A stretch of DNA of 64,000 nt from Epilithonimonas sp. JDS. Its GTDB lineage: Bacteria > Bacteroidota > Bacteroidia > Flavobacteriales > Weeksellaceae. The stretch spans positions 62,001 through 126,000 of the forward strand of contig NZ_JAJSAX010000007.1 in assembly GCF_021261315.1 (NCBI RefSeq). Reading direction: 5' to 3'. Positions 17,433 to 51,431 of this stretch are shown one piece after another. The notes under the pieces were generated by a model. It ran no database searches and was not told the DNA's origin. It saw only the letters and a program-made list of their open reading frames with translations. Position 1 is the stretch's first letter, and each line of letters opens with the position of its first letter. The translations under genes were made by a program, and so were the position numbers.

Positions 17433-18386
17433 TTATCTCTTTCTAAAGAATGAGTTTACAAATTCCATACCATTAAAAATTTGAAGATCCTGCATTTTTT
17501 CCCCGACGCCAATATATTTTACAGGGATTTGAAATTGGTCTGAGATGCCAATCACGACGCCGCCTTTCGCTGTACCGTCTAACTTTGTAACAGCCAGTGC
17601 AGTAACTTCCGTCGCTGCTGTAAATTGTTTTGCCTGTTCAAATGCATTCTGTCCAGTTGAGCCATCCAAAACCAATAAAACTTCGTGAGGCGCGTCGGGT
17701 AAAACTTTTTGCATCACCCGTTTTATTTTCGAAAGTTCGTTCATTAAGTTGACTTTGTTGTGAAGTCTTCCAGCGGTATCGATGATCACTACATCGGCAT
17801 CCTGAGCTACAGCAGATTGTACGGTATCAAATGCCACGGAAGCAGGATCAGAACCCATTTCTTGCTTCACAATCGGAACACCAACTCTTTCGCTCCAGAT
17901 TACCAATTGATCTACAGCAGCAGCACGGAAAGTATCAGCAGCGCCAAGAACTACTTTCAGTCCTTGAGATTTGAATTGATGGGCTAATTTCCCGATTGTA
18001 GTCGTTTTTCCAACACCGTTAACGCCTACAACCATAATGACATAAGGTTTTTTGGTTGTGTCGATGTTATCGGTATCAAGATGTGGATTGTCCAATAATA
18101 GCCCGGAGATTTCTTCTTTAAGGATCTCATCAAGTTCGCTAACATTGACATATTTGTCTCTTGCAACGCGTTCCTCAATTCTTTTAATGATTTTGATGGT
18201 GGTTTCCGCGCCCACGTCGGAAGCGATGAGAACTTCCTCCAGATTGTCAAGGACTTCATCATCGACTGTGTTTTTGCCGACAACGGCTCTGGATATTTTA
18301 TCAAAAAAACCCTGGCTGGATTTTTCCAATCCTTTGTCAAGTGTTTCCTTATCTTCTTTTTTGAATATTTTTTTAAACCAACTCAT
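17433..18386 (-). CDS. ftsY: Signal recognition particle receptor FtsY
   Basis: FtsY docks SRP-bound ribosomes at the inner membrane. The 317-residue protein has a short acidic/basic N-terminal region and the NG GTPase core: helical N domain ~20-105, P-loop GVNGVGKT at 121-128, DTFRAAAVDQL at 151-161, DTAGR at 203-207 and TKLDGTAKGG at 267-276. The long acidic A domain of E. coli is absent, as is common in Bacteroidota. It follows the rpmB-rpmG-DUF4295 genes but is separated from them by a terminator and by a 7-nt-periodic array that runs into its ATG. Confidence 0.96.
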   Translation of the reverse strand: MSWFKKIFKKEDKETLDKGLEKSSQGFFDKISRAVVGKNTVDDEVLDNLEEVLIASDVGAETTIKIIKRIEERVARDKYVNVSELDEILKEEISGLLLDNPHLDTDNIDTTKKPYVIMVVGVNGVGKTTTIGKLAHQFKSQGLKVVLGAADTFRAAAVDQLVIWSERVGVPIVKQEMGSDPASVAFDTVQSAVAQDADVVIIDTAGRLHNKVNLMNELSKIKRVMQKVLPDAPHEVLLVLDGSTGQNAFEQAKQFTAATEVTALAVTKLDGTAKGGVVIGISDQFQIPVKYIGVGEKMQDLQIFNGMEFVNSFFRKR

Positions 18387-18425
18387 TTGATATATAAATG
18401 ATTAATGATAATCGATAAATGATTT
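18384..18425 (-). repeat. 7-nt-periodic array running into ftsY start
   Basis: On the coding (minus) strand the units are AAATCAT, TTATCGA, TTATCAT, TAATCAT, TTATATA and TCAAATG, the last containing the start codon. The 7-nt register is strict across six units while the units vary. No second, inverted arm is seen. Confidence 0.6.
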
Positions 18426-19679: not shown

Positions 19680-20294
19680 TTAAAACAAACCGTTCAGCTC
19701 TGCATCAATTCTTTCCAATATGTACCCGAAATCTTCCTGTTTTTCTACAAAATCCAAGTTGTCAACATCTATTATAAGAAGCTTGCCTTCTTTGTAATTT
19801 TCTATCCAGCTCTGGTATTTGTTATTCAGTTTTGAAAGATAATCAATACTGATTCCGGCTTCATATTCACGTCCTCTTTTGGAGATTTGTCTTACCAAAG
19901 TAGGGACGTCTGCTCTAAGGTAGATTAGCAAATCCGGTGCCGAAACAAAGTCTTTCATCAAGGAAAAAACTGATAAATAATTCTTAAAATCCCGTTCGGA
20001 AAGCAAGTTCATTTCAGCTAAATTCTCAGCAAAAATGTGTGCATCTTCGTAGATTGTTCTGTCCTGAATCACGTTTTTTCCGCTCTCGCGAATCTCCTTC
20101 ACTTGTCGGAATCTGCTGCCTAAAAAGTAAATCTGAAGTGCAAAACTCCATTTCGACATATCGCCATAAAAATCATCCAAATAAGGGTTGTGATCTACGT
20201 CTTCAAATTGTGCTTCCCAATTGTAATGCTTGGACAGCATTGTCGTAAGAGTAGTTTTCCCGGCTCCAATATTTCCTGTAACAGCGATGTGCAT
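19680..20294 (-). CDS. Deoxynucleoside kinase
   Basis: This 204-residue kinase phosphorylates deoxynucleosides for nucleotide salvage. It shows the P-loop GNIGAGKTT at 7-15, the family ED/WxFALQ motifs (KWSFALQIYFLGSRF), the DRS-like catalytic segment QDRTIYED at ~76-83 and the lid RGREYEAGIS. Base preference (dAdo, dGuo or dCyd) cannot be told from sequence. It lies 65 nt after the propeller-like gene. An 8-nt-periodic array lies just upstream of its start. Confidence 0.9.
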   Translation of the reverse strand: MHIAVTGNIGAGKTTLTTMLSKHYNWEAQFEDVDHNPYLDDFYGDMSKWSFALQIYFLGSRFRQVKEIRESGKNVIQDRTIYEDAHIFAENLAEMNLLSERDFKNYLSVFSLMKDFVSAPDLLIYLRADVPTLVRQISKRGREYEAGISIDYLSKLNNKYQSWIENYKEGKLLIIDVDNLDFVEKQEDFGYILERIDAELNGLF

Positions 20295-20303
20295 TCTTTA
20301 TTA

Positions 20304-20335
20304 ATTAAATGATTAAAAAATTAAGAGATTAAATA
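20304..20335. repeat. 8-nt-periodic ATTA array upstream of deoxynucleoside kinase
   Basis: ATTAAATG, ATTAAAAA, ATTAAGAG and ATTAAATA are four exact octamer-spaced units with an invariant ATTA, ending 9 nt before the ATG (minus strand). Confidence 0.6.
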
Positions 20336-32376: not shown

Positions 32377-32411
32377 TCTTGATTCTTAGATCTTTTGTCT
32401 TGTATCTTAAT
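32377..32411 (+). repeat. 7-nt-periodic TCTTnnn array before recR
   Basis: TCTTGAT, TCTTAGA, TCTTTTG, TCTTGTA and TCTTAAT are five consecutive heptamers with invariant TCTT, filling nearly the whole folA-recR gap and ending 1 nt before the recR ATG at 32413. Confidence 0.75.
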
Positions 32412-37704: not shown

Positions 37705-37779
37705 AAAGCAGGAAGTCAGAAGCTAGAGGCTGGACGTTAATTTTGAAACTTCCATCATCCATCTTCCATTATCCAACTT
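37705..37779 (+). repeat. 7-nt-periodic inverted arrays between parA and parB
   Basis: Left arm 37708-37735: GCAGGAA, GTCAGAA, GCTAGAG, GCTGGAC. Right arm 37750-37777: TTCCATC, ATCCATC, TTCCATT, ATCCAAC. The right-arm complement (GATGGAA etc.) follows the same G-N-T-G-G-A-N pattern as the left arm, so the arms are inverted to each other. The right arm ends 8 nt before the parB ATG. Confidence 0.7.
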
Positions 37780-37785
37780 AAATAT

Positions 37786-38676
37786 ATGAAAGACAAAACT
37801 AGAGCAATGGGTCGCGGTCTCGGCGCAATTTTGAATGCCGAAAGCAAATCCAATATCAACTCGGCATCTGATGAAGGCGCAAAATCTTTGGTAGGAAATA
37901 TCGTTGAAATTTCTATCGAAGATATCTATCCAAATCCCAATCAGCCAAGAACTTATTTCGACGAAAAAGCACTTAATGATCTAGCTGAATCGATCAAAAG
38001 TCTAGGCATCATTCAGCCAATTACACTTCGCAAAGATGGGCCGAAATTCGAAATTATTTCCGGAGAAAGACGTTACCGTGCTTCAAAAATTGCTGGTCTT
38101 GAAACTATTCCGGCTTACATCCGACTGGTCAACGATCAGGAATTGCTGGAAATGGCTTTGGTAGAGAATATTCAGAGAGAAGATCTTGATCCTATCGAAG
38201 TTGCTTTAACTTACCAAAGACTGTTGGACGAAGTTGGGATGACTCAGGAAAATCTTAGTCAACGTGTCGGTAAAGAAAGAAGTACAATTACAAACAGCGT
38301 TCGTCTTCTGAAATTATCTCCAGATATTCAAAAAGGTGTGAGAAGCGGTCAGATTTCTGCAGGTCACGGCCGTGCAATTATGGGATTGGATTCTGAAGAG
38401 AAACGCCAGATTTTGTTTGACAGAATCATCAAAGAACAGCTGAACGTGAGACAAGCTGAACAGCTGGCAAGTCTTATGAAAAATGCTCAGAATTCTGAAA
38501 AACAGGTAAAACAATCCATTATCCCAAATCATTTTAAGAAAGCTCAGAAAAATCTGTCTGATATTCTGAATGTGAATGTCGAAATCAAAACGTCGGCAAA
38601 CGGAAAAAAAGGGAAAATTGTTCTCGATTTTAAAAATGAAGAAGAGCTGGAAAGCATTCTTGCACACATTAGTTAA
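37786..38676 (+). CDS. parB: Chromosome partitioning protein ParB
   Basis: ParB is the CTPase/DNA-binding partner that loads at parS. The 296-residue protein has the ParB N-terminal motifs (DIYPNPNQPRTYFDE, IQPITLRK, ISGERRYRASKIAG at ~89-102 as the CTP-binding GERRxRA motif, MALVENIQREDLDPIE), then the helix-turn-helix (QENLSQRVGKERSTITNSVRLL, broken) and a C-terminal dimerisation part. The DUF5683 gene starts immediately after its stop with no gap. Confidence 0.95.
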   Translation: MKDKTRAMGRGLGAILNAESKSNINSASDEGAKSLVGNIVEISIEDIYPNPNQPRTYFDEKALNDLAESIKSLGIIQPITLRKDGPKFEIISGERRYRASKIAGLETIPAYIRLVNDQELLEMALVENIQREDLDPIEVALTYQRLLDEVGMTQENLSQRVGKERSTITNSVRLLKLSPDIQKGVRSGQISAGHGRAIMGLDSEEKRQILFDRIIKEQLNVRQAEQLASLMKNAQNSEKQVKQSIIPNHFKKAQKNLSDILNVNVEIKTSANGKKGKIVLDFKNEEELESILAHIS

Positions 38677-41743: not shown

Positions 41744-41884
41744 AGGAGCTAAATCCCGCTATCCACTATATCTTTTTTTGCTTAGAAAGATTTGTCTTTA
41801 GTAGAAATTTTTTGACAAAGCAAAAAAAGGATGCCGCTTCTATCGGGGCTAAGGGATTTGTCATCCAAATAAAATTTCTACACT
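41744..41884. repeat. Dispersed-type palindromic intergenic element
   Basis: The element starts AGGAGCTAAATCCCGCTATC and includes TTTTTTTGC (41773-41781) pairing with GCAAAAAAA (41820-41828), then GCCGCTTCTATCGGGGCTAA. The complement of this right end (TTAGCCCCGATAGAAGCGGC) is a block I remember recurring between genes in Flavobacteriia. A second nested palindrome pairs GTAGAAATTTT with AAAATTTCTAC and TTGACAAA with TTTGTCA. No ORF is present. It could be a non-autonomous mobile or REP-like unit, or a structured RNA. Confidence 0.6.
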
Positions 41885-46711: not shown

Positions 46712-48028
46712 ATGAAACCAAATTTTGTACAGAAAGTGACTAACTGGGGAAATTTCCCAGTGGTCGAAAAAGAAATGCGGTCAGACGATTCTGTTTCGAA
46801 GATTAAAAAATTTGTAAAAGATCATAACGAAGTCATCGCAAGAGGAAACGGACGTTGCTACGGCGATGCTTCTCTTGGTGAACATATTTTCTCAACCAAA
46901 AGACTCAACAAGTTTATTTCTTTTGATAGATTAAATGGCGTGATCGAATGCGAATCCGGCGTTCTTTTATCCGATATTTTGGAGGTTTCTGTTCCGCAAG
47001 GTTATTTTCTTTACGTGACGCCGGGAACCAAATATATTTCCGTTGGTGGCGCCATCGCATCCGATGTTCACGGGAAAAACCACCACGCAGAAGGTTGCTT
47101 TTCGGAATATGTGATTGAATTTAAATTGGTGAACGAAAATGCCGAAGTCATCACTTGCTCACGTGAACAAAACTCAGACAAATTTTGGGCAACGATTGGC
47201 GGAATGGGATTAACAGGAATTATTCTCTCAGCCAAATTCAAACTGAAAAATATAGAATCCGTTTACATCAAGCAGGAAAGTATCAAAGCTGAAAATCTGG
47301 ATGAGGTTTTCCGATTGTTTGATGAAAGCGAAGATTGGACTTACAACGTCGCTTGGATTGATTGTTTTCAAAAAGGAAAAAACTTAGGAAGATCAATTTT
47401 AATGAGAGGCGAACACGCTTTGAAAGCCGAATTGCCAACCAACCTTCAAAAGAAAACTTTAAAGCTGAAAGAGAAACCAAAGCCGACGATTCCATTCTAT
47501 TTTCCTGGATTTGTTCTTAATTCTTTGAGTATTAAGATTTTCAATTTCCTTTATTATAACAAGCAGACGAAGAAACAACTCAATAATTTCATTGATTACG
47601 AAACGTTTTTCTACCCATTGGATGTGATTAATGAATGGAACAAGATTTACGGAAAAAGTGGATTTATCCAATACCAGATGGTCATCCCGAAAGAAAATGG
47701 CAAAGAAGGAATGCGACAAATCCTTGAGACGATTGCAAAAAGTGGAAACGGTTCTTTCTTAGCAGTTCTAAAGTTATTCGGGAAAAATAATCCACAAGCT
47801 TACAATTCTTTCCCAGTTGAAGGTTACACTCTGGCTTTGGACTTTAAAGTGAACAAAGGTCTGAAAAAACTCGTTGACCAACTCGATACAATTGTAGAAA
47901 ATTTCGGTGGAAGAATTTATTTGACCAAAGACAGTATGAGCCGTTCATCGCTCACGAATTATCTTCAAAACGTTGATTCCTCAAAGTTTGTTTCACTTCA
48001 GCATAAGAGAATTATTAATAATGGTTGA
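46712..48028 (+). CDS. DprE1-like FAD-dependent oxidase
   Basis: This 438-residue FAD oxidoreductase resembles mycobacterial decaprenylphosphoryl-ribose 2'-oxidase along its whole length. It shows the FAD domain start ARGNGRCYGDAS, PGTKYISVGGAIASDVHGKNHH (broken), FWATIGGMGLTGII, the substrate-domain YPLDVINEWNKIYG and IQYQMVIP, LKLFG, and GGRIYLTKDS near the end. Where the mycobacterial enzyme has Cys387 (GWNICVDF), this one has Ala375 (GYTLALDF). The predicted step is oxidation of lipid-linked ribose at C2'. The last codons and stop lie inside the left arm of a 7-nt-periodic array. Confidence 0.88.
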   Translation: MKPNFVQKVTNWGNFPVVEKEMRSDDSVSKIKKFVKDHNEVIARGNGRCYGDASLGEHIFSTKRLNKFISFDRLNGVIECESGVLLSDILEVSVPQGYFLYVTPGTKYISVGGAIASDVHGKNHHAEGCFSEYVIEFKLVNENAEVITCSREQNSDKFWATIGGMGLTGIILSAKFKLKNIESVYIKQESIKAENLDEVFRLFDESEDWTYNVAWIDCFQKGKNLGRSILMRGEHALKAELPTNLQKKTLKLKEKPKPTIPFYFPGFVLNSLSIKIFNFLYYNKQTKKQLNNFIDYETFFYPLDVINEWNKIYGKSGFIQYQMVIPKENGKEGMRQILETIAKSGNGSFLAVLKLFGKNNPQAYNSFPVEGYTLALDFKVNKGLKKLVDQLDTIVENFGGRIYLTKDSMSRSSLTNYLQNVDSSKFVSLQHKRIINNG

Positions 48029-48095
48029 TAGTTTTTTGTTGATGGTTGATAGAAATCTATTCTCTACCAGCAACTGACAACTAACAACCGACAAC
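48024..48095 (+). repeat. 7-nt-periodic inverted arrays, DprE1-like/DprE2-like gap
   Basis: Left arm 48024-48051: GTTGATA, GTTTTTT, GTTGATG, GTTGATA, overlapping the stop codon of the upstream gene. Right arm 48068-48095: CAGCAAC, TGACAAC, TAACAAC, CGACAAC. On the opposite strand every right-arm unit is GTTGnnn, so both arms use GTTGnnn heptamers in inverted orientation. The right arm ends 8 nt before the ATG at 48104. Confidence 0.75.
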
Positions 48096-48103
48096 TAATT
48101 ACT

Positions 48104-48829
48104 ATGATAATATTAGGTTCCAATTCCGAAGTTGCACAGGCATTTGTAGAAGAATGTTTGGCGAAAGGCGAAAAATTCCAGACCATTTATCTCCTAAGTT
48201 CCAATCCCGAAACGACGGAGAAATTCGCCGGACATATTCAGGTGAAGTTTTTTCAACATTCCGAGATCATTCCTTTGGATCTGATGAATGACATCGATTA
48301 TAAAACTCTGGAAAATATCAATTCTGATGTTCTGTTTTGCGCGACTGGCTATCTTGGTCTGGGAACGGAAGAAGGACTTTACGATGATGAAAATACAGAA
48401 AGAATCATTGATGTGAATTATGCGAAATTAGTTCCTGTTCTCAACTTCTTCGCCAAAAGAATGGAATCCAAAAGAGCCGGAACAATGATTGTTTTGTCAT
48501 CTGTCGCAGGCGAAAGAGGAAGACAAAGTAATTTCATTTATGGTTCTGCAAAAGCAGCTTTGACGGCTTATTTAAGCGGATTGAGAAATTATCTTTTTGA
48601 TAAAAAAGTCCACGTGTTGACCGTGAAACCTGGTTTTATGGACACCAAAATGACAGAAGGTTTACCACTAAATCCAGCTCTTACAGCTTCTCCAAAAAAA
48701 GCAGCCGAAGGAATTTATAAAGCTTTTAAAAATAAAAAGAATGTTGCCTACGTTTTACCAATTTGGGCGTTTGTAATGCTAATCATTAGAAACATTCCTG
48801 AGTTTATTTTTAAGAAACTTAAATTATAA
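48104..48829 (+). CDS. DprE2-like short-chain dehydrogenase
   Basis: This 241-residue SDR shows the nucleotide-binding start MIILGSNSEVAQAF, LFCATGYLG, catalytic Ser in VLSSVAGERGRQSNF and the YxxxK pair in IYGSAKAALTAY. The SVAGERxRxSNFxYGSxKA stretch and the C-terminal hydrophobic tail (VMLIIRNIPEFIFKKLKL) match decaprenylphosphoryl-2-keto-ribose reductase (DprE2). Together with the DprE1-like oxidase it would epimerise lipid-linked ribose to lipid-linked arabinose. The gene is flanked on both sides by 7-nt-periodic arrays. Confidence 0.88.
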   Translation: MIILGSNSEVAQAFVEECLAKGEKFQTIYLLSSNPETTEKFAGHIQVKFFQHSEIIPLDLMNDIDYKTLENINSDVLFCATGYLGLGTEEGLYDDENTERIIDVNYAKLVPVLNFFAKRMESKRAGTMIVLSSVAGERGRQSNFIYGSAKAALTAYLSGLRNYLFDKKVHVLTVKPGFMDTKMTEGLPLNPALTASPKKAAEGIYKAFKNKKNVAYVLPIWAFVMLIIRNIPEFIFKKLKL

Positions 48830-48830
48830 T

Positions 48831-48912
48831 TGATGAATGATAGGTCATAATTGACTTCACTTTTAACTCAAAAGAGCGATGCAAATAATCATTTATCATT
48901 CATAATTCATCA
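48831..48912 (+). repeat. 7-nt-periodic inverted arrays before HAD gene
   Basis: Left arm 48831-48858: TGATGAA, TGATAGG, TCATAAT, TGACTTC. Right arm 48885-48912: ATAATCA, TTTATCA, TTCATAA, TTCATCA. The complement of the right arm (TGATGAA, TTATGAA, TGATAAA, TGATTAT) is the same unit type as the left arm. The right arm ends 3 nt before the ATG at 48916. Confidence 0.75.
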
Positions 48913-48915
48913 CTT

Positions 48916-49503
48916 ATGAAAAAACTATATCTATTCGATTTCGACGGAACGCTTACTTACAAAGACACGATGTTTTTGTTTTTGAAGTTTTACAATCCTT
49001 CCAAATATTCGTTTCAATTTCTGAAGCATGTGCCACTTTTTATTTTATTAAAATTAAAATTAGCCAGTGCAGAAGCGGTGAAAAAGAGTTTTATCTCATC
49101 CATCTTAAAAGGTGAATCCAAATATCAGATTGAGAAAAAAGCAAAACTGTTCTTCGAGGAGAATTATCCAAGTTTGTTCAGGGAAAATGCTTTGGATTTC
49201 ATTAATAATATCAACAGAGAAAATACGGAATCTTACATCGTTTCAGCGTCTTTGGATATTTGGGTAAAACCATTTGCGGAGAAGTTTGATATGACTTTGC
49301 TGGCTACAAAAGCGGAGTTCAAAGATGATATTTTTACAGGGAAGTTCATCGGCAAAAATTGTAATAAAGACGAGAAAGTCTGCAGAATAGAAGCGGAACT
49401 TGGTGACAAGAAATTCGACAAGATCATAGCTTTCGGAGACACTTTTGGGGACAAACCAATGTTTAAGTTTGCCAATGAATCGCATTACCGATTTTTTCAC
49501 TAA
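48916..49503 (+). CDS. HAD-IB family phosphatase
   Basis: This 195-residue HAD hydrolase shows motif I DFDGTLT at 8-14, motif II Ser in VSASLDIW, a Lys-rich cap, and motif III/IV GDTFGDKPMF. The IB subfamily includes phosphoserine phosphatase-like enzymes. Position after the UbiA/DprE1/DprE2-like genes suggests it removes the 5'-phosphate from polyprenyl-phosphoryl-5-phosphoribose. Mycobacteria use an unrelated phosphatase for that step, so this is an inference from context. Confidence 0.8.
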   Translation: MKKLYLFDFDGTLTYKDTMFLFLKFYNPSKYSFQFLKHVPLFILLKLKLASAEAVKKSFISSILKGESKYQIEKKAKLFFEENYPSLFRENALDFINNINRENTESYIVSASLDIWVKPFAEKFDMTLLATKAEFKDDIFTGKFIGKNCNKDEKVCRIEAELGDKKFDKIIAFGDTFGDKPMFKFANESHYRFFH

Positions 49504-51250: not shown

Positions 51251-51324
51251 GATCCGGTAGTTCAGCTGGTTAGAATGCCGCCCTGTCACGGCGGAGGTCG
51301 CGGGTTCGAGTCCCGTCCGGATCG
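51251..51324 (+). tRNA. tRNA-Asp (GTC), copy 1
   Basis: The 74-nt gene has acceptor stem GATCCGG/CCGGATC with discriminator G, a D-arm (GTTCAGCTGGTTAGAAT), anticodon loop CTGTCAC with anticodon GTC flanked by the CCGCC/GGCGG stem, and T-loop GTTCGAGTC. CCA is not encoded. Confidence 0.97.
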
Positions 51325-51357: not shown

Positions 51358-51431
51358 GATCCGGTAGTTCAGCTGGTTAGAATGCCGCCCTGTCACGGCG
51401 GAGGTCGCGGGTTCGAGTCCCGTCCGGATCG
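51358..51431 (+). tRNA. tRNA-Asp (GTC), copy 2
   Basis: This copy is identical over all 74 nt to copy 1, 33 nt downstream and before a shared terminator. The two are very likely one transcript. Confidence 0.97.

Follow-up and report, generated by a model that had tools for sequence, protein, structure and literature searches.

The 64,000-nucleotide window analyzed here (Epilithonimonas sp. JDS, contig NZ_JAJSAX010000007.1, positions 62,001 to 126,000) holds several intergenic gaps in which short units are repeated in tandem, with a period of seven or eight nucleotides (nt), directly before a start codon (Table 1). Two of these gaps flank the DprE2-like gene. In both (48029-48103 and 48830-48915) a G-type run follows the stop codon and a C-type heptamer run precedes the ATG, and the resulting two-armed palindromic elements span the space from stop to start, as they also do at 37705-37785 and in the compared genomes G192 and G188. 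The original prediction, made from the letters of the window, placed period-7 arrays before the DprE2-like, HAD, parB, recR and ftsY genes and a period-8 array before the deoxynucleoside kinase (dNK) gene. When each gap was compared with 2000 dinucleotide shuffles of its own sequence, five of the six arrays were individually significant (DprE2, HAD, parB and ftsY at lag 7, dNK at lag 8), and the recR candidate is marginal and unconvincing alone. Genes were called with our own greedy open reading frame finder, with no curated annotation, and the degenerate unit spellings used throughout are our summary of the arrays. The nearest named relatives of the DprE2-like protein come mostly from Epilithonimonas (98% to E. 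lactis), followed by Chryseobacterium and Kaistella, which makes the Chryseobacterium of the original prediction correct at roughly the level of the family.

Table 1. Repeat arrays and adjoining genes in the window (scores are autocorrelation scores at the given lag; TRF, Tandem Repeats Finder).
Feature	Position	Strand	Remarks
GTTGnnn array, stop-side arm	48021..48050	+	overlaps stop codon of FAD-binding (DprE1-like) gene; TRF period 7, 4.3 copies
nnnCAAC heptamer array, start-side arm	48071..48104	+	ends at ATG of SDR (DprE2-like) gene; TRF; DprE2 gap lag-7 score 13, P<0.0005
Short-chain dehydrogenase (DprE2-like) gene	48104..48829	+	Pfam PF00106 5.9e-19; 'DprE2-like' is the name given in the original prediction
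TGATGAA-type stop-side arm	48830..48854	+	by sequence; weak alone; marked as array in G011, G004, G007
ATCATTT-type heptamer array, start-side	48888..48917	+	ends at HAD gene ATG; lag-7 score 13, P=0.0005
HAD-family hydrolase gene	48916..49503	+	PF12710 3e-29
GAAGnnn arm and TTCCATC-type arm before parB	37712..37775	+	lag-7 score 15, P<0.0005; TRF 37747-37779
parB	37786..38676	+	PF17762 6.8e-36, PF02195 4.5e-32
Octamer array (ATTAnnnn on +) before dNK gene	20297..20332	-	lag-8 score 14, P<0.0005
Deoxynucleoside kinase (dNK) gene	19680..20294	-	PF01712 5.6e-59
ATCATTT-type array before ftsY	18394..18423	-	11 nt downstream of TAnnTTTG box; lag-7 score 11, P=0.0025
ftsY	17433..18386	-	PF00448 1e-75
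TCTTnnn candidate before recR	32377..32394	+	score 5, P=0.055, not significant alone; recR domains found

To place these sites in the context of the genome, arrays scoring at least 12 per lag were counted in 864 kb of it (21% of 4.17 Mb; 589 intergenic gaps, 88.3 kb), in stretches drawn after the list of GTTG matches was known but not because of those matches, and 20 dinucleotide shuffles served as the null. At lag 7 there are 46 intergenic arrays against 2.40±1.39 in the shuffles (maximum 6), the outcome of a check that had been set beforehand, and the excess of heptamer arrays over chance is real. Lag 14 gives 32 arrays against 2.25 and lag 8 gives 14 against 2.70, making period 8 a second, real period beside 7; lag 11 is slightly raised (8 against 2.75), and the counts at lags 5, 6, 9, 10, 12 and 13 are at chance. 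The score thresholds used in this work (9-12) were fixed after a first look, with the other lags and the shuffles as controls. Four other Bacteroidota genera, selected because two unit patterns abound in them and sampled in the neighborhood of known matches (400 kb, 274 gaps), yielded 15 arrays against 0.8 at lag 7, or 11 once the gaps that had guided the sampling were removed, and 15 against 0.9 at lag 8. Genomes that are array-poor by two tetramer patterns still have arrays (3 against 0.2 at lag 7 in 80 kb). Four consecutive GTTGnnn units occur 58 times in the Epilithonimonas genome (overlaps counted) and are present in 130 of 395 Bacteroidota genomes, and four TGATnnn units in 74 of 198; the backward control for the GTTG search is the identical pattern and hence uninformative. 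GTTG counts diverge within single genera, with 94 in G188 and 0 in G094, and 18 in G145 and 0 in G044, contrasts that offer a handle for locating a trans-acting cause.

An excess of this kind could arise by neutral slippage, in which 7- or 8-nt repeats would build up in unconstrained leader and trailer DNA, the base skew described below would express a general avoidance of G near starts, and there would be no selection for the arrays themselves. Polymerase slippage has been invoked for the heptamer excess of many bacteria (Mrazek 2007, cited by PMC4692102 and PMC4679880). We consider this explanation rather unlikely, and one observation that speaks against it is that E. coli K-12 has zero arrays at every lag from 5 to 14 in 200 kb and 139 gaps.

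The arrays are concentrated at gene edges. In gaps of at least 100 nt, 17 of 25 lie within 15 nt of an edge, where uniform placement would put 5.26±1.93 (maximum 13 in 5000 simulations). Between co-directional (tandem) genes, 29 of 354 start edges carry an array (1.25 in shuffles), as do 13 of 354 stop edges (0.55), a 29:13 ratio (p=0.02); because stop codons are abutted too, the arrays are best described as gene-edge features with an approximately 2:1 preference for starts. The start-codon preference that had been predicted, with its check set beforehand, therefore holds, and in this genome it has a directional component. Divergent starts have arrays less often than tandem starts (4/172, 0.40 in shuffles; p=0.007), convergent stops have them at 3 of 144 edges (0.25), and all non-tandem edges taken together at 7 of 316 (p=0.0005 against tandem starts). 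Gap length does not explain the bias, since it stays at 45-100 nt, where arrays are found at 17 of 124 tandem starts, 0 of 20 divergent starts and 2 of 72 convergent stops. In the stretches of the four other genera, sampled around known arrays, the comparison is 9/151 tandem against 0/92 divergent (p=0.015), and without the sampling-guide gaps it is 6/148 against 0/92 (p=0.085), which is in the same direction but weak; pooled with the Epilithonimonas sample, guide gaps left out, it becomes 35/502 against 4/264 (p=0.0008). A small array-poor sample has arrays at 0 of 29 tandem starts. For slippage, the weak replication of the tandem bias is a favorable point, and array edges may merely mark DNA that is free of promoters and terminators; however, arrays are scarce in convergent gaps, where constraint is presumably weakest.

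Read away from the gene, the recurring units are TGATRAN, GTTGWYR, TTAGANN, GAAGTYR, TTGGCNN and GTAAAAN, together with octamers such as GAGTTTGG and ATTAnnnn. The units have a strand polarity: 28 of 30 start-edge arrays contain more G than C in the outward reading, which makes them G-poor on the mRNA strand, and 10 of 16 stop-edge arrays are also richer in G than C reading outward. At tandem starts, the outward composition at 10-40 nt is 0.211 G and 0.046 C with arrays, as compared to 0.132 G and 0.116 C without them. The prediction that this is not one dispersed repeat was correct, and several unit types do exist; its description of the units as unrelated was too strong, because some of them recur, the commonest in 14 of 63 arrays, modestly above a column-permuted null (mean 8.6, maximum 13). 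Within units, four core positions are conserved (GTTG in 80-88% and TTAG in 83-94% of units, percentages inflated because the cores themselves define the unit families), and variable bases lie between the cores.

Recurrent cores at a pitch of 7-8 nt are what would be expected of a multivalent site for an RNA-binding protein of the bS1, cold-shock or RRM family that controls or recruits translation. The spread of GTTG arrays over roughly a third of the Bacteroidota genomes is compatible with such a reader, as is their presence in G188, whose sample has a GC content of 62% (51.5% in intergenic DNA), a finding which indicates that units need not follow genome composition. S1, Csp and Csr proteins are also the candidates named for TAACTGA repeats by MacGregor (PMC4679880). 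Several different cores at one and the same start codon, described below, are hard to square with one protein, and RRM proteins show no association with array content, being found in 10 of 15 array-rich and 9 of 15 array-poor genomes (both sets hand-picked from tetramer-pattern counts). On balance, a dedicated protein-binding site appears unlikely.

To determine how the arrays change between species, four orthologous gaps were compared in 22-23 species, with a start array defined by a score of at least 9, or at least 11 for period 8; the species are not independent and unit labels were assigned partly by eye. Among gaps of 40-200 nt, start arrays are present in 7 of 14 before DprE2, 12 of 18 before HAD, 13 of 18 before parB and 11 of 22 before dNK, as compared to 0.02-0.20 in shuffles. 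The units differ from species to species at the same start codon. Before HAD, six types exceed the threshold (ATCATTT, CTTCCAT, ACCTAAA, ATACCAA, ATCACCA and AACCCTCA), and a seventh, GCCAATT, was seen by eye in G017 only, with a score of 7 that is below threshold. By eye, the ATCATTT type occurs in eight species and ACCTAAA in four (two above threshold), and the CTTCCAT type is found in two species whose HAD genes are 93-98% DNA-identical to that of the window. The remaining HAD gaps, again by eye, comprise two that look decayed, one that is different and four of less than 20 nt, with lengths of 6 nt in G019 and 18 nt in G018. In G020 and G006, which belong to these four, a 2-nt gap follows the DprE2-like gene and another gene, approximately 50% different from that of every other species, stands in the place of HAD. 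Eighty further loci, some with sequences overlapping the first set, have a HAD homologue next in 74 cases and provide 36 gaps of 40-200 nt; 13 of these have start arrays (0.15 in shuffles), although two, L281 and L310, are AT-rich and could be chance. These loci add the ATACCAA, ATCACCA and AACCCTCA types, at HAD genes that are 65-66% identical. The parB start likewise carries CTTC, ATCA or GCCA types across species, and many species in the panel have ATCA-type heptamers at the dNK start in place of the octamers of the window. The GTTGnnn stop-side array before the DprE2-like gene is, by eye, also present in G015, G008, G009 and G005 and is altered in G017 (22 species), and the 286-nt gap upstream of ftsY, which by eye includes a small gene, is 94-100% identical between the window and five other species. 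In G011, G020, G018, G021, G019, G022 and G016, the gap upstream of DprE2 contains, by eye, another repeat ('...gcgtc...gcgtt...') in place of the GTTG/CAAC array.

Two processes may underlie this turnover. Homologous recombination between species is probably one of them, because alleles of the same type share a common spacer sequence across species (by eye) and the nearest neighbors shift along the DprE2 and HAD genes. A gap resembling L30-L15 of the ribosomal operon (names by eye) has its spacer replaced between the window's genome or G011 and G015 or G008, with flanks that are 97-99% identical. When unit types were mapped on a tree, the minimum numbers of changes at the four sites were 11, 11, 9 and 4, close to the shuffled means of 12.9, 12.9, 10.4 and 3.9; the labels, made by eye, include non-array states. 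The tree omits G013, which is represented by parB only, and in G012 the gap before parB, a gene-finder artefact, was labeled by eye. Some nodes are weak and the flanks show recombination, for which reason this result is taken only as a sign of frequent exchange. The other process is slippage-like duplication, for which one 14-nt and one 7-nt indel between species at high identity are favorable evidence; indels of 7n nt are nevertheless not enriched in arrays (6/39 against 36/304 elsewhere), and the recurrence of arrays with different units at the same start argues against neutral slippage. Copy-number changes in whole units, the mark of phase-variable simple repeats, are represented by these two indels, with no general excess. 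Since the run can persist at one spot in related species while its word differs, the comparison suggests that rhythm, position and a low-G make-up matter more than the letters.

The inverted pairs in the window raise the alternative that each array is one arm of a short mobile inverted-repeat element (similar to repetitive extragenic palindromes (REP) or miniature inverted-repeat transposable elements (MITE)), with such elements inserting between genes and replacing one another, and single arrays being what is left after decay. Palindromes that fill entire stop-to-start gaps, in the window as in G192 and G188, count in favor of this reading, as do the 6- and 18-nt gaps before HAD in the two species mentioned above. 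Gaps of 40-140 nt moreover tend to have start and stop arrays together (4 with both, 17 with a start array alone, 6 with a stop array alone and 187 with neither; Fisher p=0.0099), and full-length Y1_Tnp/RAYT-like transposase genes are found in 13 of 15 array-rich but 3 of 15 array-poor genomes (p=0.0007), a contrast that depends on a cutoff (E<1e-15) chosen after the list was known and that shrinks to 13/15 against 9/15 when any match with E<=0.001 is accepted. Array-rich genomes without such a transposase also exist (G051, G126). The majority of start arrays have no inverted partner, and within Epilithonimonas array gaps the two arms are not significantly similar (p=0.08, n=34); pooling with related genomes gives p=6e-5 for gaps that are not independent, and in both cases non-array gaps show a similar excess. 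Single elements such as 48029-48103 do pair. A hairpin from stop to start as a common principle was rejected, as the median fold z-score is -1.38 for 37 array gaps and -1.61 for 80 controls, and so was an intrinsic terminator or stop-start hairpin as a class, with 9.19 linking pairs in 30 array gaps and 9.49 in 160 others. The inverted arrangement noted in the original prediction is confirmed at three sites in the window. It is not a general feature, as neither folding and linking pairs nor arm similarity distinguish array gaps from others.

Copying of elements between loci was rejected as well. The longest stretches common to different loci (21-25 nt) are longer than a column-by-column model allows (22 and 25 nt, where that model reaches at most 20 and 24), but they stay within a unit-resampling model. 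Around the RAYT-like genes (approximately 19 of 23 read), the flanks carry mostly other, GC-rich repeats, not the arrays as the conserved palindromic unit that flanks the transposase gene in REP/RAYT systems. Two cases differ: in G098 a 28-nt run of heptamers precedes the gene, and in G000, the genome of the window, CAAC runs occur close to the C21 gene, by eye within a coding region. Mobility would also leave the rarity of arrays in convergent gaps unexplained (2/72 edges against 17/124 tandem starts at 45-100 nt, p=0.012), and we regard it as an improbable origin of the arrays. Several copies of a 'gtcgctctgcgac' palindrome lie after one RAYT-like Y1 transposase gene (G000:C1:702115-702459, L106), and a dispersed repeat like 'TTCGAGARCCTCAGMCTGACA' adjoins heptamer arrays at approximately 170.7, 182.5 and 259.7 kb of G000:C1.

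The reading that we favor, with a probability of roughly 0.38, is that the arrays give internal cistrons unstructured, unit-indifferent leaders in a phylum where Shine-Dalgarno initiation is absent. In Flavobacterium johnsoniae, structure near the start tunes translation, and the phylum lacks Shine-Dalgarno sequences (PMC6847099). In the proposed mechanism, the mRNA of short, mostly promoterless co-directional gaps would present approximately 3 to 9 G-poor tandem heptamers, sometimes octamers, directly before the start. A G-poor unit that is unable to pair with itself would, when repeated, yield a single-stranded leader, and such a leader should aid loading at the internal start by a ribosome that does not use Shine-Dalgarno pairing. 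Any G-poor, non-pairing unit would suffice, leaving the unit free to change while position, period and G-poverty persist; the word could be free and polarity and place fixed because the repeating G-poor unit itself lowers structure. New units would come from 7- or 8-nt duplication, and existing alleles would be swapped between species by homologous recombination. Folding predictions for this genome are consistent with such leaders. The predicted unpaired probability over positions -20 to -1 is 0.681 in 26 array leaders and 0.530 in 226 other tandem leaders (p=5e-5), and in the array leaders it falls to 0.592 upon dinucleotide shuffling (p=1e-4) and to 0.458 when they are reverse-complemented, whereas 120 non-array leaders gain little over their shuffles (0.515 against 0.497, p=0.18). 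A TAnnTTTG box lies just upstream of only 1 of 26 start arrays, an underpowered comparison with the 9.3% background. The suggestion in the original prediction of a translation-initiation element in a lineage with little Shine-Dalgarno pairing gains from the tandem bias, the G-poor polarity and the predicted open starts.

Several points weigh against these leaders as the explanation. The openness did not replicate in the four other genomes, where 12 array leaders average 0.580 and 80 others 0.543 (p=0.45); there, non-array leaders exceed their shuffles (0.543 against 0.501, p=0.0007) and array leaders gain no more. Arrays at stop edges, with the opposite sense polarity, are left unexplained by a leader role, and two-armed elements such as 48029-48103 would partly sequester their own leader. 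Openness, moreover, needs no period of 7 or 8, and the period would be accounted for only by a duplication bias that the indel counts do not prove. A variant that would assign the period a function is a period-coded, letter-free cis element, in which ribosomes or a multi-domain single-strand binder such as bS1 sense a G-poor pitch of 7-8 nt. We think this doubtful; if true, it would mean that selection keeps rhythm and place at the start codon and lets the words swap freely, throughout a phylum devoid of Shine-Dalgarno initiation. For the choice of internal start codons in these Bacteroidota, rapidly swapped leaders at the same starts in related species constitute a natural experiment on letters, rhythm, G-poverty and openness. 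The leader reading would further provide a testable role for heptamer repeats, which are known from several phyla, and an example of intercistronic sequence that turns over completely while its position is constrained.

Heptamer repeats between genes have precedents. The short tandemly repeated repetitive (STRR) heptanucleotide sequences of cyanobacteria are degenerate tandem heptamers between genes, as are the arrays described here. REP/RAYT systems and other dispersed palindromes resemble the arrays in being intergenic, partly palindromic and present in many copies, but the arrays are built on period 7 without constant sequence and their arms are mostly unpaired. The original prediction knew of no description of start-adjacent arrays; such repeats are nonetheless already in print. 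MacGregor (2015; PMC4679880) describes TAACTGA repeats in marine Beggiatoaceae, some Cyanobacteria and five Bacteroidetes; most of the 169 sets lie immediately ahead of start codons, and a translational role is suggested for them. Like the arrays, they are tandem, mostly intergenic 7-nt units of few copies and one orientation, most of them located a few nt before the start at the place of a Shine-Dalgarno sequence, with a minority near stops. The units here are not TAACTGA, although G051 has arrays of TGATAAC, which is that repeat read in a different frame. Unlike that single unit, whose related heptamers are described there as rarely repeated, several types recur here (TGAT, GTTG, TTAG, GAAG), period 8 is used as well, related species have different units at the same start, and co-directional gaps are preferred, a feature for which no test was noticed in that study. 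The GGGAATC-type heptamers of Xanthomonas and Nostoc (Rehm 2015, PMC4692102, a report that also cites heptamer over-representation) are likewise intergenic, form inverted pairs at some sites and vary between close species at the same gap, but they are G-rich quadruplex formers of one unit type, whereas the arrays before starts have little G on the mRNA strand. In a search of the open-licence literature in PMC, we found neither an account of units being exchanged at orthologous starts nor one of a bias toward co-directional gaps.

Other RNA elements were recorded in the same sequences. In G000:C1, a thiamine pyrophosphate (TPP) riboswitch aptamer (L118 7710-7800, minus strand) scores 46.5 bits, just below the gathering threshold of 54.3 (E 5.6e-8); a TGAT-type heptamer palindrome directly follows it, before the gene, and is perhaps part of the expression platform. 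Flavo-1 RNA (RF01705), a long palindromic intergenic element, occurs in the window at 41748-41854 on the minus strand and at L045 3432-3536, with 71.7 and 73 bits, respectively. Finally, two tRNA genes of near-identical sequence lie close together in the window at 51251-51324 and 51358-51431, both scoring 67.9 bits.

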